Assembly: GCF_018304825.1 (NCBI RefSeq)
Contig: NZ_CP072649.1
Coordinates: forward strand, 62,001-126,000
DNA: 64,000 nt
Direction of reading: 5' to 3'
Origin: Chloracidobacterium validum
GTDB lineage: Bacteria > Acidobacteriota > Blastocatellia > Chloracidobacteriales > Chloracidobacteriaceae
Shown here: in pieces, positions 5,354-57,529 of the stretch
Numbering within the stretch: position 1 is the first letter of the stretch
Layout of the letters: every line of letters starts with the position of its first letter
Notes under the pieces: generated by a model
What the model was told of the DNA's origin: nothing
Databases searched by the model: none
The model's input: only the letters and a program-made list of their open reading frames with translations
Translations under genes and position numbers: made by a program

Positions 5354-5388
5354 GGCCCCAGCGCAAAAGAGTGGCGCAAAAAAATGAA

Positions 5389-5414
5389 GCACGCCCCAAA
5401 GGGCGCGCTTTTTC
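5389..5414 (+). terminator. terminator after M14 peptidase
   Basis: GC-rich hairpin GCACGCCCC-aaa-GGGCGCGC followed by CTTTTTC on the plus strand, 36 bases after the carboxypeptidase stop. One mismatch in the lower stem. Confidence 0.65.
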
Positions 5415-5426
5415 AGGCAACTGTAA

Positions 5427-5455
5427 AAAGCCGCAGGATGCTATCCGGCGGCTTT
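5427..5455 (-). terminator. terminator of the needle-like operon
   Basis: AAAGCCGC at 5427-5434 pairs with GCGGCTTT at 5448-5455; the loop contains a second short stem (GGAT/ATCC). On the minus strand it is followed by a T run (GCGGCTTTTTACAG). It sits right after the stop of the 135-aa minus-strand gene and so ends the operon coming from 7377. Confidence 0.75.
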
Positions 5456-5463
5456 CGGGGTGC

Positions 5464-5871
5464 TTACATCGCAATTTGCGCCTGCTTGACCTTGTCGGCC
5501 ACGGCATCGCGGCCGGTCACGGCATCCATCAGTGTCTTGAGCGCTTCGTTGAACTTCGTCAACGCAGATGAAATTTTCTGCAACCGGTCCGCAAAGCTTT
5601 GTAGCCGTTGGGCGAAACGGCCGATGCCATCGGCGGCGCGATCAATCGCGTTCGATGCCTGGCCAAAGGGCCCAAGCGGTGGATTCTTGGCAATGTTGGT
5701 GTTGCTGCCGTTGAGCAGGGATGAACCAATCCGCTGCACGAGGCTCGAAAGCGCGCCCTTGATGCCATTGCTCAAGAAGGACGTGGCCAAGCCTTTGACC
5801 GCATTCATCGCAACACCCTTCAGCATCGGAAGGGCAACTTTCGCAAGACCAGCAATAAGTGGGAGTGGCAT
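5464..5871 (-). CDS. amphipathic protein, paralogue of the needle-fusion protein
   Basis: 135 aa, no homologue recognised by name. It is closely similar to residues about 25-145 of the next gene upstream (5908-6609): shared blocks are NIAKNPPLGPFG, FAQRLQ, ALTKFNEALK and DAVTGR.AV.DKVKQAQ. The N-terminal third is hydrophobic and Gly/Ala/Leu-rich (LPLIAGLAKVALPMLKGVAM), the rest is a predicted long amphipathic helix or coiled coil. It is the last gene of a minus-strand set with a needle-like gene and a TPR chaperone, which suggests a type III secretion substrate or translocator-like component. That role is inference from context and shape; there is no recognisable catalytic motif. Confidence 0.6.
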   Translation of the reverse strand: MPLPLIAGLAKVALPMLKGVAMNAVKGLATSFLSNGIKGALSSLVQRIGSSLLNGSNTNIAKNPPLGPFGQASNAIDRAADGIGRFAQRLQSFADRLQKISSALTKFNEALKTLMDAVTGRDAVADKVKQAQIAM

Positions 5872-5907
5872 GACTGGGATACCTCCTAATGTATCAATGC
5901 GGTTTGC

Positions 5908-6609
5908 CTACCGCAGGTTGTTGAGCGCCTGCATCACGGCGTCGTTCATGGCTTTTTGCAGGTTTGACTTGGTCGCGCCTTCCTGCGTGATCGAGTTCAT
6001 CATCATCTGGAGCGCGAACTGGTATTCCTGCATCTTCTGCTGATAGCGCAGGCGGTCTTCATCGGAGGCATTTGGACCCGGCATGGACGGCTTTTCCGGC
6101 AAGCCAAACTCGCTGCTGTTGGCACGCGGCGCCACAGCGGTTGAAACCCCGGAAGAAGCGGGTGGTCCAGTTGCGGACGGTTGCCCCGTCGAAGGCGAAG
6201 TAACTTGCGCCTGCTTGACCTTGTCTTCCACTGCGGTGCGTCCGGTGACGGCATCCCGCAGGGCCTTGAGTGCTTCGTTGAACTTGGTCAGCGCGGTTGA
6301 AATGTTCTGCATCCGCTGGCTGATCTGCTGAAGTCGTTGAGCGAAACCGCTCAAGCCCTGTGCGGCCCGGTCAATGAAGCCAGTTGCCCGACCGAAGGGT
6401 CCGAGTGGTGGATTCTTGGCGATGTTGGCGCCAATCCCACGCATGAACGAGCTGCTGATGCGTTGCACCAGGCTGCCCAACGCCTGTCCGATCCCGCCAC
6501 CGCGCAAGAATGATGTCGCAATGTTGAGCAGTGGATTCGCGCCGGCAACGGTTCTGAGCAACGGCGTGGCAATCCGGGCAATTCCTTTGAAAATCTTTCC
6601 GATAGGCAT
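5908..6609 (-). CDS. fusion of amphipathic module and needle-like module
   Basis: 233 aa made of two parts that also exist as separate neighbouring genes. Residues about 1-145 match the 135-aa protein downstream (NIAKNPPLGPFG, ALTKFNEALK, DAVTGR). Residues about 165-233 match the 69-aa needle-like protein upstream almost throughout (FGLP.KP.MPG.NASD, RL.YQQ.MQ.YQFALQ, ITQEGATKSNLQKA). A Thr/Ser/Pro-rich linker joins them. No signal peptide. The arrangement is best explained by duplication plus gene fusion. If the short protein is a type III needle subunit, this one could be a tip, adaptor or needle-capping variant; this is inference. A perfect 8-bp inverted repeat lies just upstream. Confidence 0.65.
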   Translation of the reverse strand: MPIGKIFKGIARIATPLLRTVAGANPLLNIATSFLRGGGIGQALGSLVQRISSSFMRGIGANIAKNPPLGPFGRATGFIDRAAQGLSGFAQRLQQISQRMQNISTALTKFNEALKALRDAVTGRTAVEDKVKQAQVTSPSTGQPSATGPPASSGVSTAVAPRANSSEFGLPEKPSMPGPNASDEDRLRYQQKMQEYQFALQMMMNSITQEGATKSNLQKAMNDAVMQALNNLR

Positions 6610-6633
6610 GACGATGTCTCCTTGAACAAATCA

Positions 6634-6652
6634 GGCCTGGGTAACCCAGGCC
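6634..6652 (-). terminator. 8-bp inverted repeat between needle-like genes
   Basis: GGCCTGGG (6634-6641), 3-nt loop, CCCAGGCC (6645-6652). It lies in the 52-bp gap between the 69-aa gene and the fusion gene on the minus strand and lacks a strong T tract, so it may act as an attenuator or RNA-stability hairpin that makes the first gene more abundant than the second. Confidence 0.55.
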
Positions 6653-6661
6653 CCTATGCGC

Positions 6662-6871
6662 CTAGCGCAGGTTGTTGATCATCGCCATGATGGCGTCGTG
6701 GGCGGCTTTCTGAAGGTTTGACTTCGTCGCGCCTTCCTGGGTGATGGCGTTCATCGCTTGCTGGAGCGCGAACTGATAGTTTTGCATGTCCTGCTGATAC
6801 TTGAGACGGTCGGTGTCGGAAGCATTCGCGCCGGGCATGGTTGGCTTTGGTGGGAGTCCGAAGTTCGACAT
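6662..6871 (-). CDS. type III secretion needle-like protein (SctF-like)
   Basis: 69 aa, all helical after a short Pro-rich start. It has the size and layout of type III needle subunits (PrgI, MxiH, YscF): a helix, a Pro-Asx-containing turn (MPGANASD), then a long helix with LKYQQDMQNYQFALQQAMN and a C-terminal IMAMINNLR that resembles the conserved IIQNFR end of PrgI/MxiH. Those family features are from established knowledge; no search was possible. A near-copy forms the C-terminal third of the adjacent 233-aa protein. A TPR chaperone-like gene lies 48 bases upstream, as expected for needle subunits. RBS AGAAAGGAAC precedes the ATG. Assignment is likely but not certain. Confidence 0.6.
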   Translation of the reverse strand: MSNFGLPPKPTMPGANASDTDRLKYQQDMQNYQFALQQAMNAITQEGATKSNLQKAAHDAIMAMINNLR

Positions 6872-6918: not shown

Positions 6919-7377
6919 TTACTGTATGCTTTCACCGCCCTGCTCGGCGGCTTCCTGCACAATCTGGTGGATACCAAGCGCAATCGCTCGCGCCCGATTC
7001 GCGCCAGGGTCTTGCTCTTCCGGGTCGAGGTCTATGGCGCGTTGCAAGTCAGCAATCGCTTCCTCGTAACGCTCGCTTCGCAAAAACACTTCCGCGCGGT
7101 TGACGTAGGGGGCAATCATTTGCGGGTCGAGCGCAATCGCCTGCTCCAGACTGGCGAGCGCCAACGCATCTTCCTGGGTACGGGTGTAGAGTGCGCCGAG
7201 CGCGGCATGGGCCGCAGCACTGGTCGGGTCAACCTCAACCAGTCCCTCAAAAATCGTCCGGGCGCGCTTGAGATCACCTTGCTCGTAATACATCGCCCCG
7301 ATTTCGCCCATGCGCTGGAAGTCTTCGTCCGTAATACCGAGCTGCTGGCGTGGCGTTTCGTTTCCGTTAGCACTCAT
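6919..7377 (-). CDS. TPR protein, SycD/LcrH-like type III chaperone
   Basis: 152 aa with about three TPR repeats between residues 18 and 130 (MGEIGAMYYEQGDLKRARTI, ALGALYTRTQEDALALASL, NRAEVFLRSERYEEAIADLQ). Size and repeat layout match class II type III chaperones (SycD, LcrH, PscG), which hold translocators or needle subunits in the cytoplasm. It is the first gene of the minus-strand set leading to the needle-like genes. A related protein occurs at 13760-14290. RBS AGGAGATAGTCCC sits before the ATG. TPR fold is sure; chaperone role is inference from context. Confidence 0.7.
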   Translation of the reverse strand: MSANGNETPRQQLGITDEDFQRMGEIGAMYYEQGDLKRARTIFEGLVEVDPTSAAAHAALGALYTRTQEDALALASLEQAIALDPQMIAPYVNRAEVFLRSERYEEAIADLQRAIDLDPEEQDPGANRARAIALGIHQIVQEAAEQGGESIQ

Positions 7378-7694: not shown

Positions 7695-8912
7695 ATGGAA
7701 GTCAAACTCATCGTGCGTGAAGTCGGCGCTCCGCCGGCCGCCAAGCCTCTACTCGAAGACGTTTGGCGCACCAGTGTCATTAGTCTGGGCAGTAGTCCGC
7801 ACGCCACCCTGCGGTTGACTGGGTTGGGTATCGCCGCCGAACACGTCGTTCTGTTTGAGGAAAACGGCCACATCGCCTTCGCCAACCATGGGGATGGCAC
7901 ACGCCTGAATGGGCTGCCGGTGCGCAACGGAGACCGGCGCGCCATTACGTTTGGGGATCGGATTCACATCGGCAACTATGTGGTGACGGTGCTTGATGGC
8001 AACTCACTGGCGGTTCGCTTGGACGACCCCCGCGCCACCGGTTTGTTGCAGGCCGCGACGCGCGAGTTATTCACCAGTGGCTTGAAGTTTGACCTGGACA
8101 GCATCTTACCGGCGGCCTTTCGTTCTCCCGGCGGGCGGAAGTCGCTGGAAATTCCCGAAAACGCCAGCTTCGCTCAAATCCTTGACGCGCTGGTGACGAC
8201 GGAAGACAGCTTTCGTTTCGTCATCGAGGGCGGGTATCAGCCCAATGTGTCGTTGGCGTTGCCATCTGGCGATGCGGAAGCATCGTTGGGGTGGGAAGCG
8301 TCAGGGCTACGCATCACGATGAGCCAGTCAGAGATCGCCACCTACTGCGCGCTCGTCCGCAAGACCGGGGAGCAAGTCACGCTCCATCCGGTGACGGCCG
8401 AACACCGCCTGACCGTCAATGACGAGCTGGTGACCGAACCCCGCGCGCTGGTAGATGGCGACCGCATCCGATTCGCATCACCGTTGAATCGTCCGCTGGA
8501 TCGGCCCCTGCCAACGCTCATTTTCCGCACGCCGGCGACGCTCTCCCTGCTGGCCGAAGCAGTCGCGGCAACACCGCCCCCAGCCGTTGGGGTGACCTCC
8601 GCCAGTGCGGACGAAGCCGCCTCAGTGTCGGCGTCAGACCCCGAAACCAAGCTGCCTGTGGACCTGAACGGGGAGCCGCCGCTGCGGCAGGTGGTCGAGA
8701 TGCCGGCGCTGACGGAAGCCGATATGCGCTCGGCAACGCCCGAAGCCGCGTCTTCGGGAACCAGGTCTTCGGACGCTGCCCCGGCCGCCGCTCCTGCCAA
8801 GACTGGAAAGATTTACTACTTGGGCTATTTTACCGGCGTCGAGCTACTGGTCATGGTCGTTGGCACGCTGCTTGGCGCACTCGTCGTGTATGTCATCCTC
8901 GAAACACTATGA
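7695..8912 (+). CDS. tail-anchored protein with two FHA-like domains
   Basis: 405 aa. Residues 1 to about 105 form an FHA-like fold (ISLGSSPHATLRLTG, DGTRLNGLPVRNGDRRAITF, GDRIHIGNYVV). A second, more divergent copy lies at about 205-285 (LTVNDELVTEPRALVDGDRI). Then comes a Ala/Pro/Ser-rich spacer and a single C-terminal membrane helix (ELLVMVVGTLLGALVVYVIL) with only three residues after it. The usual SctD inner-ring protein has an FHA domain, one helix and a large periplasmic part; here the periplasmic part is missing, so this is a tail-anchored cytoplasmic protein. It is 39 bp upstream of sctV and likely co-transcribed, which argues for a type III role. RBS GGAGGAGTCC gives the start. Confidence 0.7.
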   Translation: MEVKLIVREVGAPPAAKPLLEDVWRTSVISLGSSPHATLRLTGLGIAAEHVVLFEENGHIAFANHGDGTRLNGLPVRNGDRRAITFGDRIHIGNYVVTVLDGNSLAVRLDDPRATGLLQAATRELFTSGLKFDLDSILPAAFRSPGGRKSLEIPENASFAQILDALVTTEDSFRFVIEGGYQPNVSLALPSGDAEASLGWEASGLRITMSQSEIATYCALVRKTGEQVTLHPVTAEHRLTVNDELVTEPRALVDGDRIRFASPLNRPLDRPLPTLIFRTPATLSLLAEAVAATPPPAVGVTSASADEAASVSASDPETKLPVDLNGEPPLRQVVEMPALTEADMRSATPEAASSGTRSSDAAPAAAPAKTGKIYYLGYFTGVELLVMVVGTLLGALVVYVILETL

Positions 8913-8951
8913 ACGCCTCACAGGCGGTGACTGGCTGATTTGGAGAAATCC

Positions 8952-11102
8952 ATGAATTCGCTGACCGACCGTGTAAAAAGCTTCAGCGGGATTGACTTTG
9001 CTACCGCGCTCTCGAAAAACAGCGACATGCTCATTGCCGCTGGGATGATCGTTCTCATCGGGACGATAATTGTCCCGGTGCCGACCTTCATCATCTCGGT
9101 GCTCATCGTCGTCAACATCACCATCTCGCTCGCGGTCATGATGGTGTCGCTTTACATTTCGAGTCCGCTTCAGCTTTCGACCTATCCAACGATCCTGCTG
9201 CTGACGACGCTGTTTCGGCTGGCGCTCAGCATTTCCTGCACGCGCAGCATTCTGACGAAAGGCGACGCCGGGGATGTCATCAGGGCGCTGGGCGAGATTA
9301 CCGCCCAAGGCAACCTGGTGGTCGGCTTTGTCATGTTTGTCATCCTGCTGGTCGTTCAGTTTTTGGTGGTAGCGAAAGGCGCGGAGCGCGTGGCGGAAGT
9401 CGCCGCCCGGTTTACGCTCGACGCCTTGCCCGGCAAACAAATGGCCATTGACGCCGATATGCGGTCGGGGCTGATCACCATGGAGGTCGCCAAGAAGCTG
9501 CGCTCCGACCTGGCCAAGGAGTCCCGCCTGTACGGCGCGATGGACGGCGCGATGAAGTTCGTCAAGGGCGACTCGATTGCCACCATCATTATTGCCGTGG
9601 TCAATATCGTGGCGGGGATGGCGATTGGCGTGCTGTACCGTGGCCTCGACCCGGCCGCCGCCGCCAAGAAGTACCTGATCCTGACCATCGGAGACGGGCT
9701 TGGGGCGATTTTTGCCTCAATTTTCATTGCTATCTCGGCCGGGTTGGTCGTGACGCGCGTAGCCGGTGACGATACGGACGAAAGCAGCAATGTCGGGGCT
9801 GACATGAGCGCCCAACTCCTTGCCAATCCCAAGCCGCTGCTGGTCGTATCCGGGCTGCTGGGTTCGATGGCGGTGGTGGCGGTCCTGGCCGGGAGCACCG
9901 TTGCCATCCCGGTGCTGATTGTCGCGGCCGTCGCCGCGCCGGTGGCCCTGAGCCTGCGGAAGCGTCAGCAGGCACTGGCCGCCAAAGCAGCCGAACGGCA
10001 GGCAGCCACGCCCGACCCGGCGGCCGAAAGTGATGACATTCAGCCTTCCTACACCGTGCCGATGGCCATCGTGACCAGCGCCGAGCTGGCTCCCTACATT
10101 GACCCGGAATTCCCCAGCGGCGCGAAGTTCCGCGAAGGGCTGACGGCGCTCCGCAACACGATGTACTACGACACCGGGGTGCTCATGCCGCAGATTTACG
10201 TCACCGGCAACGCACCGCTGGAGCCGTTTCACTACGTCTTTGCCGTCAAGGAAATTCCGGTCGCGCAGGGCGTCGTCAAGCCATTTCACTTCTACGTCAA
10301 CGACTCCGTGGAAAACATCAAGGTGTTCGGCATCGAGGGCGAGGAAGTGCGCAATCCGGCGGATTTACGCCCTGGCGCGTGGGTGCCGGATGACTATCGG
10401 CTGCTGGCAACGGTGGCGGGTCTCAAGGTTTGGGAGCCAAGCGACTTTTTGCTGCTGCACATCTCCAACATCCTGCGTCGCCATGCGCACGAATACGTCG
10501 GCATCCAGGAAGCGCAGGCGCTCCTGGATTTCGTTGGGCGCGGCGCGCCCAAGCTGGTCGAGGAAGTCGTCCCCAAAATCGTTTCACTTCATCTCTTTAC
10601 CGACGTGCTCCAGCGGCTCGTGCAGGAAGGGGTCTCGATTCGAGATGTGAAGTCCATTCTGGATGCCCTGGCCGAGTGGGGACGCATCGAGAAAGACCCG
10701 GCGCAGTTGACGGAATACGTCCGCGCCTCGCTCAAGCGGATCATTTCCTTCAAGGCGTCCGGTGGGCGCTCGACGCTTTTTGTCTATTTGCTCGACCCCG
10801 AGATTGAAGACATCGTCCGGGGTTCGATTCGGCGAACATCAACCGCCGCTTTCCTGGCGTTAGACCCAACCATCAGCAACGATATTCTGGCCTCCCTGCG
10901 GGAAGAAATCGGGCTGCTGCCGCCAACAGCTCAAAAGCCGGTCATCGTCACGGATATGGACATTCGGCGCTTTGTCCGCAAGCTGGTGGAAGTCGAGTTT
11001 CCAAACGTCTCGGTACTTTCCTACCAAGAGCTATCACCTGACTTAACGGTTCAGCCAATCGCACGGATCGCCTTGCCCCACGGCGGACGCCTGGCGGCAT
11101 AG
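8952..11102 (+). CDS. sctV: type III secretion export gate SctV
   Basis: 716 aa, the usual length of the FlhA/SctV family. Residues about 20-330 hold eight membrane helices and the conserved FHIPEP-region signature (LLTTLFRLALSISCTRSIL, ALPGKQMAIDADMRSG). Residues about 360-716 form the cytoplasmic ring domain (PSYTVPMAIVTSAELAPYID onward, with HEYVGIQEAQALLDFVG). SctV forms the nonameric gate that receives substrate-chaperone complexes. A TTG at 8940 is in frame, but the ATG at 8952 follows GGAG at a proper distance. There are no flagellar genes around, and the neighbours (SctL, SctI-like, needle-like proteins) indicate a non-flagellar system. The loop around residue 340-360 is Ala/Arg-rich. 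Confidence 0.93.
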   Translation: MNSLTDRVKSFSGIDFATALSKNSDMLIAAGMIVLIGTIIVPVPTFIISVLIVVNITISLAVMMVSLYISSPLQLSTYPTILLLTTLFRLALSISCTRSILTKGDAGDVIRALGEITAQGNLVVGFVMFVILLVVQFLVVAKGAERVAEVAARFTLDALPGKQMAIDADMRSGLITMEVAKKLRSDLAKESRLYGAMDGAMKFVKGDSIATIIIAVVNIVAGMAIGVLYRGLDPAAAAKKYLILTIGDGLGAIFASIFIAISAGLVVTRVAGDDTDESSNVGADMSAQLLANPKPLLVVSGLLGSMAVVAVLAGSTVAIPVLIVAAVAAPVALSLRKRQQALAAKAAERQAATPDPAAESDDIQPSYTVPMAIVTSAELAPYIDPEFPSGAKFREGLTALRNTMYYDTGVLMPQIYVTGNAPLEPFHYVFAVKEIPVAQGVVKPFHFYVNDSVENIKVFGIEGEEVRNPADLRPGAWVPDDYRLLATVAGLKVWEPSDFLLLHISNILRRHAHEYVGIQEAQALLDFVGRGAPKLVEEVVPKIVSLHLFTDVLQRLVQEGVSIRDVKSILDALAEWGRIEKDPAQLTEYVRASLKRIISFKASGGRSTLFVYLLDPEIEDIVRGSIRRTSTAAFLALDPTISNDILASLREEIGLLPPTAQKPVIVTDMDIRRFVRKLVEVEFPNVSVLSYQELSPDLTVQPIARIALPHGGRLAA

Positions 11103-12877: not shown

Positions 12878-13763
12878 CAACCAGCGCCGGGGCGAGCGTG
12901 TTGATGGCAAACAGCAAGAGCGAAGCGTTGACCGCCGTCGGGACGCCAACCCCATGCGCGTGCAGAATCACGGCGGCCGTTCCTTCACGAACACCGATGC
13001 CGGCTGGTGTTATCGGGATGAGGTTTGACAGCAAAATCCACGGAAAGGCGAAGGCAATCACGGCAAAGCCGACCGGCTCAAACGCCCGCGCCAACACATA
13101 CAGTGACACCACGTCTAACCCGGTGAGCAGGACGGCGGCTATCAGGTTAGCGGCAATGTCGCGGTGACGCAGACGCTTGAGCGCGGCCGCCGCCGGATAG
13201 AGCCGTTCCCGCAGCCACGCCGGAAGGTAACGCGCGGCCAACAGGGCCGGTAGTCCGACCGGCAAGGTGAACACCAGCAGTAACGCGCTGCACCCGGCTG
13301 CGGCCAACGGCCACCTCCAGTCCGGTGGGGCAACGGCCAGTGTCCCAAAACAGGCGGCGGCACCCAGGGCGGCAACGTCGGTTGCGCGGTCAATGAGAAA
13401 CAGTCCGGCAGCCGCCGTCCGCATTCCGGGTGGGAGAAAAGCCGCGCGCCCAAGTTCGCCGACCCGGCCGGGCGTGACCAAACCGAGCGCCATGCCACAC
13501 AGCAGCGAACGACTGGCGGTCAGCCGTGAAGTCTCCGCACGAACGCGCATCAGAAGCCACCGCCACTTGGCAGCGCGAATAACCAGCATCGCCCCACCCA
13601 GGCCCAGCGCCGCGCCAATCCAACGCCAATCAGCGTCACGAAAAGCCAGGCCCACGGCGGCAAGGTGGCCGGTTCGCGCCGCCAGCGCCAGCAGCCCCGC
13701 CAACGCCAGCCACTTGGCGACCGTCCAGGCGGTCTGGCGCGCCGACCGCGTCCCAGGTTTCAC
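12792..13763 (-). CDS. flippase-like membrane protein (LPG synthase TM region / YbhN family)
   Basis: 323 aa with about seven to nine hydrophobic helices and the pattern of the lysylphosphatidylglycerol-synthase transmembrane family (UPF0104): LVIRAAKWRWLLMRV, LCGMALGLVTPGRVGELGR, and FPWILLSNLIPITPAGIGVREG. Family members are proposed to flip lipids or lipid-linked sugars across the inner membrane; the substrate here is unknown. Its ATG overlaps the stop of the upstream TPR gene by four bases (ATGA), so the two are translated together. Its 3' end lies inside the 103-bp repeat. Confidence 0.8.
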   Translation of the reverse strand: MKPGTRSARQTAWTVAKWLALAGLLALAARTGHLAAVGLAFRDADWRWIGAALGLGGAMLVIRAAKWRWLLMRVRAETSRLTASRSLLCGMALGLVTPGRVGELGRAAFLPPGMRTAAAGLFLIDRATDVAALGAAACFGTLAVAPPDWRWPLAAAGCSALLLVFTLPVGLPALLAARYLPAWLRERLYPAAAALKRLRHRDIAANLIAAVLLTGLDVVSLYVLARAFEPVGFAVIAFAFPWILLSNLIPITPAGIGVREGTAAVILHAHGVGVPTAVNASLLLFAINTLAPALVGLAWMTTAGQAPATVENPTTQSNVPPAR

Positions 13764-14290
13764 AACTGAAAGCCGTCGCCCAACTGCCGAACCTCCCGCT
13801 GCGGCGCGTCGTGCAACGTCCGCGGGGCCGGACGGCCGCCGCGCTCGATAAACGCCAGCAAGGCGCGCGCGCGTTGGATGTAGGGCGGGGGACTAGGGTC
13901 AGGCACGAGCGCGACGGCGCGCTGCAAATCAGCGCGGGCGCGCGGCACATCGCCAAGGTAAAGCAGGACTTCACCCCGATTCACCAGCGCCACGGCGTCA
14001 TCCGGCGTCGCCGTCAGGACGCGGTTCAGGTGGGGCAACGCCCCGGCGTAGTCCCGGACACGCAGCTTGAGCGCGCCCAGCGCGGACTGAAAGTACACCG
14101 TCGCCGGAACCAGCGCGGCCAGGCCTTCAAAGACGGTAATGGCTTCGGCATGCCGCCCCTGCTCGGCCAGGCTGTAGCCCAAATCGGTCACCAGGCGAAC
14201 CTCTTCGGGCGTCCAACCGGTGGCCGCCGCCAGCGACAAGCCACCTTGCAACCAGTCGTGATCCTGTTTGGTGAGCATGGACAATTCCAA
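13760..14290 (-). CDS. TPR protein, second SycD-like chaperone
   Basis: 176 aa with about three TPR repeats (VTDLGYSLAEQGRHAEAITV, LGALKLRVRDYAGALPHLNR, NRGEVLLYLGDVPRARADLQ). It has the same layout as the TPR protein at 6919-7377, including the NR.EV.L....RA.ADLQRA block, so the two are paralogues. That, and the nearby type III genes, suggests a type III class II chaperone; the overlap with a flippase-like gene does not obviously fit and leaves the role open. The ATG at 14290 could also be replaced by the ATG at 14278. Confidence 0.65.
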   Translation of the reverse strand: MELSMLTKQDHDWLQGGLSLAAATGWTPEEVRLVTDLGYSLAEQGRHAEAITVFEGLAALVPATVYFQSALGALKLRVRDYAGALPHLNRVLTATPDDAVALVNRGEVLLYLGDVPRARADLQRAVALVPDPSPPPYIQRARALLAFIERGGRPAPRTLHDAPQREVRQLGDGFQL

Positions 14291-16978: not shown

Positions 16979-17626
16979 ATGCTCATCGTCAAACCTTCCA
17001 GTTCCGACTTCGTTCCCCTCACAGGCGGCATCGTCAAACGCCCGATGGTCGAGGCGCGCGCCGAAGCCCGCCGGCTCATCAACGAAGCCCAGGCTGAAGC
17101 CAGGCGGCTCGTGGATGCCGCCCACGCCGAGGTGGAACGGGTTCGCTCCGAAGCCTATGCGGCCGGCTACGAAGCCGGCCTCAAAGAACTGACCACCCAC
17201 CTGCTCGACGCGCAACGCCGCCGTGACGCTTTGCTGTCCAGCGTGGAGCGCGAAGTGCTGCGCCTGGCGCTGCGTATCGCGGAAAAAATCATTGGGCGTG
17301 AGATTGAAACCCAGGACACTACACTGCTGGACATCGTCCGGGCCGCGCTACGCAACATTCGGCAGGCGAGTGCCGTGACGATCTGCGTCAATCCGGCCGA
17401 CGTGCCCAAGCTCGAGCGCCACCGAGAAGCCATCGAAACACTCCGGCGCGGACAGTTTGTCAATATCGTTCCAGATACGCGGGTGTCGGTTGGAGGCTGC
17501 ATCCTGGAAAGTGAGTCCGGTATCGTGGACGCTCAACTTGACACCCAACTGCGCGTGCTTGAGCAAGCGCTGCTCGACCTACACGATATGCAGCGGCGTG
17601 ACGCGCGGCCTGGTTCGCTCGAATGA
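16979..17626 (+). CDS. sctL: type III secretion stator SctL (FliH/YscL family)
   Basis: 215 aa. Residues about 20-75 are a Glu/Ala/Arg-rich helix with AEARRLINEAQAEARRLVDA and GYEAGLKE, the hallmark of FliH/SctL. The C-terminal half (VLRLALRIAEKIIGREIE, ILESESGIVDAQLDTQLRVL) is the conserved domain that binds the type III ATPase and regulates it. The ATPase gene itself is not in the window. The stop overlaps the start of the next gene by four bases (ATGA). Confidence 0.88.
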   Translation: MLIVKPSSSDFVPLTGGIVKRPMVEARAEARRLINEAQAEARRLVDAAHAEVERVRSEAYAAGYEAGLKELTTHLLDAQRRRDALLSSVEREVLRLALRIAEKIIGREIETQDTTLLDIVRAALRNIRQASAVTICVNPADVPKLERHREAIETLRRGQFVNIVPDTRVSVGGCILESESGIVDAQLDTQLRVLEQALLDLHDMQRRDARPGSLE

Positions 17627-23200: not shown

Positions 23201-23281
23201 ACGCAACATGCCGGATGGTTGCCCGAAAACCTGGATAGGTGGCACTCCGCCGCCATGCCTTAGTTTACGGAGCCATGCGTC

Positions 23282-24058
23282 ATGAAAGTCAATCCATCGG
23301 CAACGCCGGCGGCGTCATCCCAAGTGAAAACCAAACCGGCCGCACAACAGGCGCGGTCCCAGGATTTCGATGCCTTGCTGAACCTGCCGGATGACCTCAC
23401 CGACGCCGATGCGCAAGCCTCGGATGCGTCGGCTGCGGCGGCCATGTCTCCTCTTGGCGGATACGGCGCAGCCGACGTGAGCGCCGACGGACGTGACGCC
23501 GAACAGACCAGGCAGCCAACCGATGATCCACCGCCGCCGCTGACGGCCGCGGAAGAGGCAGCCCAGGCGGCCATGCTGCCGGGCAATCGGGAACTGCGCC
23601 CCGAAGCCACTTCCGACGTGACGCCGCGCCGCATCCTGCACGTCGTGGACATGGAAAAAATCGTCGCCACGGTCCGTACGCAAACCTTTTCCGGGAATGA
23701 AGCCCAGGCCACGATTCAGCTTAGTCATTCAATCCTCGACGGACTGAGCATCAAGCTGCAAACCGACGCCCGTGGGCGCGTCTCGGCGGAAATCACGGCG
23801 ACGACCGAAGCCGCCAAGCGCATCGTGGATGCCCACGCCCGCGAACTCAACGACCTGCTGCGCATGCGCGGCCTCGATGTCACGTCCTTCTCGACGAAAC
23901 TGGCCGAAGGTGACGCGGGGACGGCCGCCGGTGACGAAGGCGGCGCATCGCCGCAATCGTCGGGGGGACGGAGGGCCTTTGCCGACTTCGCCACGGAAGC
24001 GGTCGAACCGGAACCGAAGGCATCGGCGGCGGATGGCGAGGGCATCTACACGGCCTAG
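23282..24058 (+). CDS. FliK/SctP-like needle-length control protein
   Basis: 258 aa. The first about 125 residues are Ala/Asp/Pro-rich and disordered; residues about 120-200 resemble the C-terminal domain of FliK/SctP proteins: QATIQLSHSILDGLSIKLQT, GRVSAEITATTEAAKRIVDA, LNDLLRMRGLDVTSF. In this family the domain binds the export switch protein and the long front part measures hook or needle length. The tail after residue 205 is again low-complexity. The stop overlaps the stop region of trpA on the opposite strand. Assignment rests on the domain pattern plus the other type III genes nearby. Confidence 0.6.
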   Translation: MKVNPSATPAASSQVKTKPAAQQARSQDFDALLNLPDDLTDADAQASDASAAAAMSPLGGYGAADVSADGRDAEQTRQPTDDPPPPLTAAEEAAQAAMLPGNRELRPEATSDVTPRRILHVVDMEKIVATVRTQTFSGNEAQATIQLSHSILDGLSIKLQTDARGRVSAEITATTEAAKRIVDAHARELNDLLRMRGLDVTSFSTKLAEGDAGTAAGDEGGASPQSSGGRRAFADFATEAVEPEPKASAADGEGIYTA

Positions 24059-49672: not shown

Positions 49673-51586
49673 TTAGCCGACCGTGACGAGAACGTACTGG
49701 AACCGCTGCTGATTGCCAAGCGATGACCAGAAGCGATTGAATTCGCTCTGCGGCATGGTCTGGCATCCGGCCGAATAGGTGTTGGTCGTGCCGCCACGGT
49801 GGAAATACATCGTCCGTCCCTCGAAGCTGTTCCGGTTCCGGTCACGCTCGTCAAAGACGCCGTCGTGGTTGGTGTCGCGGACGACCGGGCGGCTCGTCGT
49901 GGGCATGAGGATGTTGTTGCCGTCGGGTTGCGTCGGTCCAAAGTTAGGGCCAACGTTGGCGCGCATATATTCGTGCGTGCCGTCCACCAGCCGGCCCAGG
50001 TCGAGGCGGCCGTCACGGTTGCTATCCACGCCCATTGGACGGCGCGTCCGGCCTGACCAGCCATCTTCGTACTGGCTGCTTGGTTCGGTATTGCCACGCA
50101 ATTCGGTCACCTGGAACTGGCCGTTAGGTAGCTTGCGCAAGGTCACGAAACGGTCATCATAAACGCCTTGTCCACCATTGGCGCGGGTGTTGGTTTGGAC
50201 GCGCAAGCCCAAAATCACGGTCCGGCCGGCTGCCAGATCGGCTTTGGCCTGCTCGGAGCCATGACGTTCGATGTAGTTGGCGTACAGGGCAAACTTCTGG
50301 GCGGTGGTCATGCCTTCCGTCCGTGGTAGGCCCGTCCGAGGCGGCGTGGGAGCACTTGGCTCTGAAGGTGGGCGCGGGGTGGGCGCGGGCGCAGGGGAAC
50401 TACCACTGCCGGGGATCACGATGCGCTGGCCCGGGTAAATGCGGTTTGGATTCGTGATGCTGGGGTTGGCGCGTTGCAGGGCGGCGACCGTCGTGCCGTA
50501 TTGCTGGGCGATGCCCGACAAGGTATCGCCAATCCGAACGCGATGCTCCCGCGTACCGGCCGCCGGCGGGTTGGACGGCGCGGGTGCCGCGGGCGGCTGG
50601 CTCGGCACGGTGTTGCCACTCCGGGCGATGGCGTCAAAGCGCGTCAGGTCATGCTCGCGCATGATGCGGTGCAGCAAGTTTGTGTAGTTTGGGTCGGTGG
50701 CATACCCGGCGCGGTGAATCTCGGCCGCGAAGCGGAAGGCGTCATTCGTGTGCCGCATCGCCGTGGCATAGCGCGGGTTGCGGATGAAAAACTGCGCGTG
50801 ATCGGCGAATGACTCGGCGGCGGAGTTGTATTTGCGGAACTGGGCATTGACATAGACTTCGCGCCCGTTGAGGACTTCGCGCGTGCGCATCGTGACCGAG
50901 CCGGCCGGGCCCGTTCCCTTGATCCCGAAGTAGTTGTTGGCCTGGCGCGTCAGAGCCGAGCGTCCCCAGCCGCTTTCGAGAATGGCCTGCGCAATCGTGA
51001 CCGATGCCGGAACGCCGGTGGCGCGCTGGCTGCGGATGGCATCGGCAGCGATGGAGTCAATGAAAGCATTCCCGGTGCGCGGGATGGAGCCGACTGGCGT
51101 CGTCGTGTCCACCCGGGGTGGGTTGGGTGTGGTTGGCGGTGACGGGGGCGGCGTCGGACGGGTTGGGGTTGGAACCGATGGCGCCGGCGCGGCCGGTTGG
51201 CGGCCAGGTAGGTTGACGACCTGGCCCGGATAAATGAGGTTTGGGTTCCGAATCTGAAGATTGGCTTTGACCAGTTGCGACAAGTCAATGCCATTGCGGG
51301 CCGCAATATCGGAGAGCGTGTCACCGGCGCGGACCACATACTGGCCGGTGTTGGTCTGGGGCGGCGCGGTCGTGCTGCGTGTGGACGGAATGGTGAGCGT
51401 TTGCCCAGCGTAAATGAGATTCGGGTTGCGAATTTGCCGATTGGCCCGCATCAGGGCATCCACCGTCGTCCCGTAGCGTTGGGCGATGCCGGAGAGTGTC
51501 TCGCCACGTCGAATCAAATGCTGCGTGCCGGTCGTCGGATTGGGGGAAGGGCTGGGTGTCCGTGTGACGCCGTTCATCCGTGCCAT
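49673..51586 (-). CDS. LysM-glucosaminidase cell-wall hydrolase, no signal peptide
   Basis: 637 aa from ATG 51586 (TTG 51637 is also in frame). Two LysM domains (about 20-67 and 80-128: RRGETLSGIAQRYGTTVDAL, RAGDTLSDIAARNGIDLSQL), a FlgJ-like N-acetylglucosaminidase at about 170-320 with the catalytic Glu in ILESGWGRSALTRQANNYFG, a third LysM (RIGDTLSGIAQQYGTTVAAL), then a C-terminal domain of about 200 residues with YSAGCQTMP. That resembles an L,D-transpeptidase-type HxxxxSxGC motif. There is no signal peptide; like flagellar FlgJ it may leave through the type III channel. It sits 63 bp upstream of the sctI-like gene. Confidence 0.8.
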   Translation of the reverse strand: MARMNGVTRTPSPSPNPTTGTQHLIRRGETLSGIAQRYGTTVDALMRANRQIRNPNLIYAGQTLTIPSTRSTTAPPQTNTGQYVVRAGDTLSDIAARNGIDLSQLVKANLQIRNPNLIYPGQVVNLPGRQPAAPAPSVPTPTRPTPPPSPPTTPNPPRVDTTTPVGSIPRTGNAFIDSIAADAIRSQRATGVPASVTIAQAILESGWGRSALTRQANNYFGIKGTGPAGSVTMRTREVLNGREVYVNAQFRKYNSAAESFADHAQFFIRNPRYATAMRHTNDAFRFAAEIHRAGYATDPNYTNLLHRIMREHDLTRFDAIARSGNTVPSQPPAAPAPSNPPAAGTREHRVRIGDTLSGIAQQYGTTVAALQRANPSITNPNRIYPGQRIVIPGSGSSPAPAPTPRPPSEPSAPTPPRTGLPRTEGMTTAQKFALYANYIERHGSEQAKADLAAGRTVILGLRVQTNTRANGGQGVYDDRFVTLRKLPNGQFQVTELRGNTEPSSQYEDGWSGRTRRPMGVDSNRDGRLDLGRLVDGTHEYMRANVGPNFGPTQPDGNNILMPTTSRPVVRDTNHDGVFDERDRNRNSFEGRTMYFHRGGTTNTYSAGCQTMPQSEFNRFWSSLGNQQRFQYVLVTVG

Positions 51587-51736
51587 AGCCTGCCTTGCTC
51601 CCTGCGCTGGAAAAATTTCGACCCCTTCGGTCTTCAATCCACGTTATCGGCAGCGCGTGCCAGATGTTGCGTTTTAGGTGAATTTTTAGGTGAAAAAGCC
51701 ACCAGCCCGGTGGGAAGGGCAGCCATGACGCTTGGC

Positions 51737-55684: not shown

Positions 55685-56770
55685 ATGGCAACTGACCAGA
55701 CGATTCAACGCACCGACCCATCGCGGATACGACCGGACGCCCTCTTGCGACAGCCGGCATCCACTCGTTCGGTTGGGAAAACTGCCTTTGAAACCCGCCT
55801 TGAACAAGCGTTGGGGGCGGATTCGCAAGTCCAACGCCGCACCCGCGAAGAACTCAAGACCATTGTCATGGCGGTGCAGTCGGGCTTCACCGATCCCTGG
55901 CAGTTGACGGACCTTATCTTCCAGGCCCGCCACCCAGAACTGATCGGCGCTGACCTGTCACAGTCGCCCGAACTCCTCGATGAGTGGAACGAAATCAGCG
56001 CCCAGCTCGTCCAGCCGACGCTGAATGACTTGGTGGCGCTCCAGTCGCAAGCCCAACCATCCGCACCGGCGGCGCCAGTGTCCTCGGCCTCCACGGTCGC
56101 CGCTGGAACCCGCGTCACAGGGAAGGACAAGCTGGCCGCTGCCAGCGCCCTGGATCCGATCATCGAGCAAGCCGTGGCCTTGTGTCCGGGGCTGCCGCCG
56201 CAGTTTCTCAAAAGCCTATTGGTGCAGGAGTCAGGGCTGCGGACGGATGTCGTCAATCAGTATGGCTATGCCGGCGTTGCCCAGATTGGCCGCCGCGAAG
56301 CGCGTGAGTTAGGGCTGGCAGTGGGCGTGCCGGGGACGGAAAGCGACGAACGCCTCAACCCAAGTCTGGCCATTCCGGCAGCCGCGCGACTGCTGCACGT
56401 CAAGGCGCAACGCCTGACGGAAATGGCTTTTTCGCGCTATGGGACGCCCCAGGGAGCCGAATACTGGAAGTTCGTCATGGGGGCCTACAACGGCGGGGAA
56501 GGCACGATTACCGTTGCCATGGGGCATGCGTACCGCGATGGTCTGGCGCGCGCGCGGGAGGAAGGTCTGGCCGGACCGGAAGCCGTGGCCTTTGCCCGCG
56601 AATGGGCGACCAAGTGGGAACACCTCGCGCTTGGCGGTGAAGACGCGCCGTTGGCGTTGGCCGCCGCGCGGTACTTCCCTAAACTGGCAGCCCAGAAGTT
56701 CGTTGAGATTCGAAACTACCCCGAACAGATTGTCGCTCGCGTCGCGCGCCGCCGTACCGCCGCCGGGTGA
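55685..56770 (+). CDS. SLT-type lytic transglycosylase, no signal peptide
   Basis: 361 aa from ATG 55685. The first about 150 residues are helical and polar (FETRLEQALGADSQVQRRTR) without signal peptide. The C-terminal half is a soluble lytic transglycosylase fold: LLVQESGLRTDVVNQYGYAG with the catalytic Glu in QES, VAQIGRREARELG, LNPSLAIPAAARLL and MGAYNGGEGTITVAMG. It cuts peptidoglycan glycan strands. Lacking a signal peptide, it may be a type III substrate that opens the wall for the needle. Followed 36 bp later by a FliA-type sigma factor gene. Confidence 0.85.
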   Translation: MATDQTIQRTDPSRIRPDALLRQPASTRSVGKTAFETRLEQALGADSQVQRRTREELKTIVMAVQSGFTDPWQLTDLIFQARHPELIGADLSQSPELLDEWNEISAQLVQPTLNDLVALQSQAQPSAPAAPVSSASTVAAGTRVTGKDKLAAASALDPIIEQAVALCPGLPPQFLKSLLVQESGLRTDVVNQYGYAGVAQIGRREARELGLAVGVPGTESDERLNPSLAIPAAARLLHVKAQRLTEMAFSRYGTPQGAEYWKFVMGAYNGGEGTITVAMGHAYRDGLARAREEGLAGPEAVAFAREWATKWEHLALGGEDAPLALAAARYFPKLAAQKFVEIRNYPEQIVARVARRRTAAG

Positions 56771-56806
56771 CGGTGACGGTTTCTCCGTACGGTGGCGCGA
56801 AACGGC

Positions 56807-57529
56807 ATGAGCGGAACGCAGCCATCCTTTCCAAACGTCAATCGTGACGCGCTCATCGAGCAGCACCTGCACTACGTGCGGACGATTGCCTATGACATCG
56901 TCCGCAAGTTGCCGCCGAGCGTCGAAATTGACGACCTGATTGCCTACGGTAATCTGGGGCTAGTGCGCGCCGCGGAGAAATACAACCCGGCGCGGGGCGT
57001 GTCGTTCGTGACCTTCGCGCACTACTACATCAAGGGCGCGATTTGGGATGAAGTGCGCAAAATGGCGAACTTTGCCCGTGTGGATGGCGGACGGGCGCGC
57101 GCCGAAGCCAATGCGACGGACTTCCTCCACAGCCTGGCGGAAGAAGACCCCGGTGGCCCAACTCCTGGGGCGACGCTCGATGACGATATTGCCGACGCGC
57201 GCGCGCAACTCGAAAGCCTCATTCCAATTTACTTGCTGTCACTCGACCACGAGGAACTCACCATTGCCGATGACAATAGCCTGGACTTTGCGCGGGCGCT
57301 GGAGCGCGACGACCTCATCGGCCGTATGATGCGGCTGGTTGCGCAGCTTCCTGATGAAGATCGCGCTACCATCGAGGCGCTCTATTTCAAGGGACGGAGC
57401 GCCGCCGATTATGCGGCTGAACTAGGTCTGTCGCGGTCGTGGGGCTCGCGCCTGCATGCGCGGGCCATCAAACGTTTGCGCGAGGCAATGCAGCGTGAGG
57501 GGCTGCTGGTGGCCGAGGACGTGACCTGA
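56807..57529 (+). CDS. FliA/WhiG-type alternative sigma factor
   Basis: 240 aa, the size of FliA/WhiG sigma-28 factors. Region 2: LIEQHLHYVRTIAYDIVRKL, IDDLIAYGNLGLVRAAEKYN, VSFVTFAHYYIKGAIWDEVR. Region 4: LPDEDRATIEALYFKGRSAA and ELGLSRSWGSRLHARAIKRL. The insert between the regions is acidic. Such factors run late flagellar or spore genes; with no flagellar genes here, it may drive the scattered type III and wall-hydrolase genes. Start ATG 56807 or GTG 56792. Confidence 0.88.
   Translation: MSGTQPSFPNVNRDALIEQHLHYVRTIAYDIVRKLPPSVEIDDLIAYGNLGLVRAAEKYNPARGVSFVTFAHYYIKGAIWDEVRKMANFARVDGGRARAEANATDFLHSLAEEDPGGPTPGATLDDDIADARAQLESLIPIYLLSLDHEELTIADDNSLDFARALERDDLIGRMMRLVAQLPDEDRATIEALYFKGRSAADYAAELGLSRSWGSRLHARAIKRLREAMQREGLLVAEDVT

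Follow-up and report, generated by a model that had tools for sequence, protein, structure and literature searches.

What do three adjacent genes encode in a photosynthetic bacterium of hot-spring mats, when two of them look like the two ends of the third? The question is raised by a stretch of 64,000 nt from Chloracidobacterium validum (Acidobacteriota; contig NZ_CP072649.1, in a 3.66-Mb genome of two replicons), hereafter the window, where proteins of 69, 233 and 135 amino acids (aa) are encoded side by side on the minus strand. A first-pass annotation had taken them for a type III needle subunit that was duplicated and fused to a new amphipathic module, possibly making a needle tip, adaptor or translocator. 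The trio shares an operon with a TPR gene (in the order TPR, 69 aa, 233 aa and 135 aa, with intergenic gaps of 36-52 bases; Table 1), and we computed its gene and operon structure, conservation, module homology, chaperone pairing and a promoter that it shares with the probable needle gene. The three proteins are most likely needle-tip or translocon subunits exported by a type III secretion system (T3SS). We give an even chance to the full reading, namely a T3SS operon of an LcrH-like chaperone plus three members of one Acidobacteriota-wide family, working in the steps proposed below.

All three open reading frames were confirmed on the minus strand, each preceded by a Shine-Dalgarno-like sequence. 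By BLASTP, the 69-aa protein is identical to residues 166-233 of the 233-aa protein at 51 of 68 positions (75%; E 4e-36), and the 135-aa protein to residues 1-136 at 83 of 136 (61%; E 2e-51), which bears out the earlier observation that they nearly equal its C-terminal third and its N-terminal part (hereafter C-module and N-module); QEGATKSNLQKA is common to the 69- and 233-aa proteins and NIAKNPPLGPFG to the 135- and 233-aa proteins. The linker of the 233-aa protein (residues 137-165), overlooked earlier, is absent from both short proteins. The trio is kept in the same gene order in six of the seven genomes of the genus, with a ratio of nonsynonymous to synonymous substitution (dN/dS) of about 0-0.16 across the three genes, indicating strong purifying selection, and of 0-0.11 for the 69-aa gene, the most conserved. 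Conserved order, low dN/dS and Shine-Dalgarno-like sequences thus identify the trio as real genes. All six trio-bearing species share a hairpin that separates the 69-aa gene from the 233-aa gene. SctV is present in every trio-bearing genome, so the trio was not seen apart from a type III system. The seventh genome (G006; same genus, assembly 99% complete) has neither the trio nor SctV, nor any close match for the M14 peptidase next to them, and retains SctS, SctN, SctU and the 121-aa gene described below; this gap reflects either loss of the locus or a gap in the assembly.

By profile comparison, the C-module is a distant relative of the SctF needle subunit. A phylum-wide search with it gave matches in 25 of 396 genomes, and those within T3SS loci sort into two kinds of gene, the short ones coding for 81-154 aa and the long ones for 163-304 aa. 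The long proteins match the needle model PF09392 with their C-termini, at 40.1 bits in G072 (cut-off 29.4); searching by genome gave 31.3-31.6 bits for G067, G093 and G105, although two of these three fell just below the cut-off in single-protein scans (28.5 and 29.3). Against solved structures, a profile of the long C-termini retrieved PrgI (E 0.005) and MxiH (E 0.016), among unrelated helical proteins. In profile-profile comparison (hhalign), the 69-aa family aligned to the long C-termini with a probability of 96.3% (E 1.9e-9) and to the short needle candidates with 95.4%, while the N-module, serving as negative control, gave 1.8%. A profile of the six 69-aa proteins only placed the 121-aa gene at the top (5.6e-8) and matched long proteins of G120 (2e-5) and a short gene of G116 (8e-5), all three above background. 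Via the long C-termini, the C-terminal helix of the C-module is thus remotely homologous to the second helix of the needle, with the signature SN..K..(H/K)D....I..N(L/I/F)R shared with PF09392 needles such as MxiH, PrgI, YscF and EscF; the size of the 69-aa protein is also needle-like. The homology is remote only, since the window proteins do not match the needle model itself; as a remote kinship of the C-module, the link to needle subunits drawn at first is supported. In the host genome PF09392 gave no match at 0.01, all matches coming from relatives in other families; a sequence search of the PDB with the 233- and 121-aa profiles found no relevant match, and Pfam and NCBIfam scans of the trio returned weak coiled-coil noise only.

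A needle-like helix of the form SNIMK.KHDT...N.R also ends four other proteins (L055:1498-2109, L044:1234-1689, L054:1162-1617 and L043:1498-2160). Three of the four have apparent Sec signal peptides, three of the four genomes are without SctV, and the promoter motif is absent. C-module profile matches in G118, G214, G217 and G218 were dropped: these genomes lack SctV, and the matches were put down to chance or to another family, one with signal peptides.

The model of the 69-aa protein (built from seven sequences; mean predicted local distance difference test (pLDDT) 73.9, with block values of 84-90 for residues 11-40 or so) does not show the needle hairpin that had been anticipated: it consists of one long helix (residues 19-68) and a polyproline arm where a needle has its first helix. 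Its best structural matches were miniproteins of the pancreatic-polypeptide (PP) type and avian pancreatic polypeptide, several at a root-mean-square deviation of 0.6-1.2 A over 30-34 residues; their Foldseek E-values (0.7 or more) are weak because the fold is tiny. The sequence profile alone picked the designed PP-fold miniprotein 5lo2 (E 6e-4). Profile and model, two methods, agree that the proline-rich N-terminus would fold back onto the helix. The likeness to the PP-alpha fold (1ppt, 5lo2 and 6gwx) spans about residues 5-39 of the 69-aa protein in both profile and model, but is a fold analogy only, the best sequence matches being designed miniproteins and a hormone, and homology is not claimed. 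A repeat structural alignment had no needle among the matches listed, and its long-helix matches were uninformative. No paper linking the PP fold with type III secretion was found among the open-access papers searched.

The needle itself is probably encoded elsewhere. Some 514 kb from the trio, on the replicon that carries both, genes for a 94-aa SctE-like protein, a 121-aa protein and a 134-aa CdsG-like TPR protein (NF052304, 2e-9) are followed by SctU. The 121-aa protein, which ends in IQNLK and has SctE- and CdsG-like partners, is the better needle candidate, and the 69-aa protein is probably not the needle. This group is arranged like the chlamydial needle operon CdsE-CdsF-CdsG, but its 121-aa candidate contains an additional hydrophobic stretch rich in glycine; the trio in the window has a different arrangement. 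Such a stretch (for example KFKSVLGGIAGAASSFIPGAGIISGLL) occurs in several short needle candidates (L021:9431-9796, L078, L079, L081 and L049), and ordinary needle subunits are without it.

Whereas the 121-aa gene is accompanied by an SctE/CdsG-like pair, the trio operon has an LcrH-like TPR instead. Profiles of the two TPR types, some of whose training sequences were among those scored, pair long genes with LcrH-like and short genes with CdsG-like TPRs, and the pairing also held for TPRs outside the training set (G067, G085, two in G120, and G081). The window TPR scored 190 bits with the LcrH-like profile against 43 with the CdsG-like one, its sequence being in the training set; it has weak similarity to SctY, that to LcrH being far stronger. 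In two other genomes, the neighbour of the LcrH-like TPR gene codes for a different protein and has a sigma-28-type site (L078:13752-14783 and L079:3951-5012); the L079 protein has a DUF1521 domain (5.6e-14) and the L078 protein looks similar. The DUF1521 domain occurs in rhizobial T3SS proteins.

The other half of the architecture recalls translocators. The N-module is amphipathic (moment 0.77, strong) and glycine-rich, and within the genus cationic, with a net charge over residues 1-70 of +8 in the 233-aa and +6 in the 135-aa protein. An adjoining gene for a class II (LcrH/SycD) chaperone, as is characteristic of translocators, is found here and beside independent long genes too. In these two respects the trio resembles the hydrophobic translocators (SctE/SctB: YopB/YopD, IpaB/IpaC and CopB/CopD), from which it differs in having a needle-family C-terminus and in several features weighed below. 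The role of tip or translocator proposed at first remains a reasonable inference, but the route proposed for it, needle duplication and fusion, is not supported.

The direction of change would rather be the reverse. In the sister family, the 199-aa protein of G010 is the sole such gene beside an LcrH-like TPR and is colinear with the 233-aa protein, which as query alone matches it over residues 63-231 (E 3e-5; a profile of 233-aa proteins only gives the same match), and G011 has one long gene at the same place. At its N-terminus the 135-aa protein weakly matches proteins 272-273 aa long from another class (E 0.006-0.04). In a tree of the C-module, which has too few columns for firm support, the 69-aa proteins group weakly with the 233-aa and sister-family long proteins and not with the short needle candidates. 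Because the sister family has a single fused gene and the tree, weakly, agrees, a long fused ancestor was probably later duplicated and split or trimmed, leaving the 69- and 135-aa genes as derived halves.

The operon is further tied to the T3SS by its promoter. A CGCAAC-N15-YCGATAA block between the TPR gene and SctD is kept in all six trio species, and its -10 half fits the FliA consensus (GCCGATAA). A scan by pattern alone found the block without mismatch five times in 3.66 Mb: ahead of the TPR operon, of the 121-aa gene, of a gene for a LysM-glucosaminidase (window 51644-51671) and of two genes for proteins of 596 and 391 aa. Allowing one mismatch gave 18 matches against 11 for a reversed-pattern control; such weaker sites stand before the gene for the SctP-like protein, before one for an SLT transglycosylase, behind which comes the sigma factor gene, and before a 608-aa gene. 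Outside the genus, a site (at most two mismatches, within 200 bases) stands before 10 of 19 needle-family genes and 4 of 268 others (p 9e-11), the four including one needle-family gene and two of DUF1521 type. Sigma genes of the FliA/WhiG type occur here in the window and, in other genera, within T3SS loci. SctV, the LcrH-like chaperone and the shared sigma-28-type promoter together uphold the type III connection made in the first-pass annotation.

Promoter-linked genes of a different sort lie at window positions 49673-51637 (minus strand) and 55685-56770 (plus strand) and at L109:1415-3205, L110:1044-2219 and L112:1098-2924. Their products are a LysM-glucosaminidase, an SLT transglycosylase, a LysM/peptidoglycan-binding glucosaminidase, a lipase/cutinase-like protein (below the Pfam cut-off) and a P-domain nuclease; by eye they have no obvious signal peptide, and their N-termini look disordered. 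These enzymes are candidate T3SS cargo, more antibacterial-like than anti-eukaryotic.

Under the reading we favour, a sigma-28-type factor would switch on the operon along with the distant 121-aa needle gene, the LcrH-like chaperone would keep the N-module in the cytoplasm, and the T3SS would export the trio proteins. Their SctF-like helix would then dock them on or into the needle end and place the amphipathic N-module at a membrane, as tip or translocon; having the modules also as separate proteins would let the cell shift their ratio, and the hairpin that follows the 69-aa gene might help to set it.

Several results weigh against this. The 69-, 233- and 135-aa proteins have no match to PF09392 or TIGR02105 at E<=1, and the hhalign and hidden Markov model alignments that connect the C-module to needles span only about 45-50 helical residues. 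Differing here from the hydrophobic translocators, the trio matched no translocator family in Pfam and NCBIfam scans, and its N-modules have no clear transmembrane segment, hydropathy being mostly no higher than in shuffled sequences (maximum over 19 residues 1.06 in the 233-aa and 1.54 in the 135-aa protein, not above shuffles). PxLxxP was considered as a family-wide chaperone-binding motif and rejected as not conserved; the 135- and 233-aa proteins carry PPLGP (PxLxP) only. The AlphaFold model of the 233-aa protein is poor (pLDDT 46.7), so the fold of the N-module is not readable. Neither in the genus nor in 17 further Acidobacteriota genomes did a T3SS-type secretin SctC exceed the cut-off; the secretin matches on the other replicon were only partial and did not go above about 127 bits, where 238 is required. 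The exit through the outer membrane is therefore not accounted for; these Acidobacteriota systems may have a different one, and without a recognised secretin the proteins might also act on the outer membrane of the bacterium itself.

Much of the same evidence could be read otherwise. It is unlikely, though worth serious weighing, that the 69-aa protein is itself the major or a second needle subunit, with the 233-aa protein as its cap or base adaptor, which comes near the original proposal. Such a role would suit its needle size, its NNLR terminus, its SctF-related C-module and its rank as the most conserved of the trio, and, owing to the conserved hairpin after its gene, it could be produced in the largest amount; yet the chaperone is LcrH-like with no SctE/SctG pair, the other gene has the pair and the IQNLK end, the first needle helix is absent from the model, and the tree groups the protein, weakly, with the long ones. 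We regard it as improbable that the family, like EspA/SctA, forms a hydrophilic coiled-coil filament or tip that lengthens the needle and plays no part at membranes: long helices are predicted in both modules at low confidence, the C-terminal helix is needle-like and a clear transmembrane segment is absent, but no tip or filament Pfam model matched in the searches run, the chaperone is of translocator class, and the N-module is amphipathic, glycine-rich and, in the genus, cationic.

An inner-rod protein (SctI) or SctX-like export component, in place of an extracellular tip, would fill a gap, no SctI having been recognised in these loci, and would fit the weak SctY similarity of the TPR, as SctX likewise pairs with a TPR chaperone (PMC9163089). 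It is nonetheless very improbable: the match goes to SctF and not to SctI models, the LcrH similarity of the TPR is much above that to SctY, and SctX and SctY are reported from the Ysc family only (PMC9163089). That the trio lies outside the type III system, its neighbourhood being coincidental, is scarcely credible. Needle-like C-terminal signatures do occur in the signal-peptide family of genomes without SctV, but those look-alikes have no promoter motif, SctV is in every trio genome, and chaperone, promoter and synteny concur.

Table 1. Features of the operon and of the surrounding type III locus (window positions).
Feature	Position	Strand	Remarks
135-aa protein	5464..5871	-	stand-alone N-module; residues 1-70 amphipathic, cationic
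233-aa protein	5908..6609	-	N-module 1-136, Pro/Ser/Thr-rich linker 137-165, C-module 166-233
69-aa protein	6662..6871	-	stand-alone C-module: polyproline arm 5-14, helix 19-68, SctF-like C-terminus SNLQKAAHDAIMAMINNLR
TPR chaperone, LcrH/SycD-like (gene 1 of the operon)	6919..7377	-	TIGR02552 E 1.7e-18, below curated cut-off
Sigma-28-type promoter CGCAAC-N15-CCGATAA	7455..7482	-	77 bp upstream of TPR start
Conserved hairpin between 69-aa and 233-aa genes	6633..6653	-	possible attenuator or stoichiometry element
Terminator-like hairpin (5410-5387) and further stem (about 5430-5460), 3' of 135-aa gene	5387..5460	-	
FHA-domain protein, SctD-like, divergent from operon	7695..8912	+	PF00498 8e-10; PF16697 1.7e-5, below cut-off
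SctV export gate	8940..11102	+	TIGR01399 717.7 bits, cut-off 692
Second LcrH-like TPR protein	13760..14290	-	
SctL/FliH-like stator	16979..17626	+	PF02108 4.9e-23, PF06635 4.1e-8
FliK/SctP-like protein	23282..24058	+	PF02120 3e-8; one-mismatch promoter motif at 23202-23229
FliA/WhiG-family sigma factor, candidate regulator	56792..57529	+	TIGR02479 8.6e-32, below cut-off

The genes of the surrounding system are dispersed across the small replicon. SctV, SctN and SctQ exceeded the cut-offs of T3SS models, SctS (PF01313) and SctL (PF02108) passed those of Pfam, SctJ is recognisable below its cut-off (E 6.5e-28), and SctU was identified by sequence inspection; the core export and ring genes of a non-flagellar T3SS (SctV, N, Q, J, S, U and L) are thereby represented, and SctO-like and FliK/SctP-like genes are present as well. 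The Chloracidobacterium isolates described so far are non-motile (PMC8245765). The second LcrH-like TPR gene has no evident client gene alongside.

In one survey, Chlamydiae, Proteobacteria and Verrucomicrobia were the only groups found to have a non-flagellar T3SS (PMC3459982), so that the systems of Acidobacteriota appear little studied, and no paper on a T3SS in Chloracidobacterium was found in our search of open-access literature. The parts described here are of known kinds; none of the open-access papers searched was found to describe their architecture, in which a needle domain is joined to an amphipathic module with a chaperone, both halves also exist as separate genes, and a polyproline arm is present. 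The origin of type III tips and translocons is open, as these proteins share little detectable sequence across systems (PMC3459982), and a family of this build would lead directly from a needle subunit to a tip or translocon. Chloracidobacterium has the whole and both halves as separate genes, open to testing, and the shared sigma-28-type promoter provides a simple way to list the parts and cargo of the system. Tentatively, then, Acidobacteriota injectisomes may make their tip or translocon from needle-family subunits, in which an SctF domain is combined with an LcrH-chaperoned amphipathic module (halved in Chloracidobacterium), and their sigma-28 regulon may deliver enzymes that degrade cell walls, lipids and nucleic acids, whose presence in the same regulon would point to a type III system directed against bacteria or other microbes in a photosynthetic bacterium of mats.
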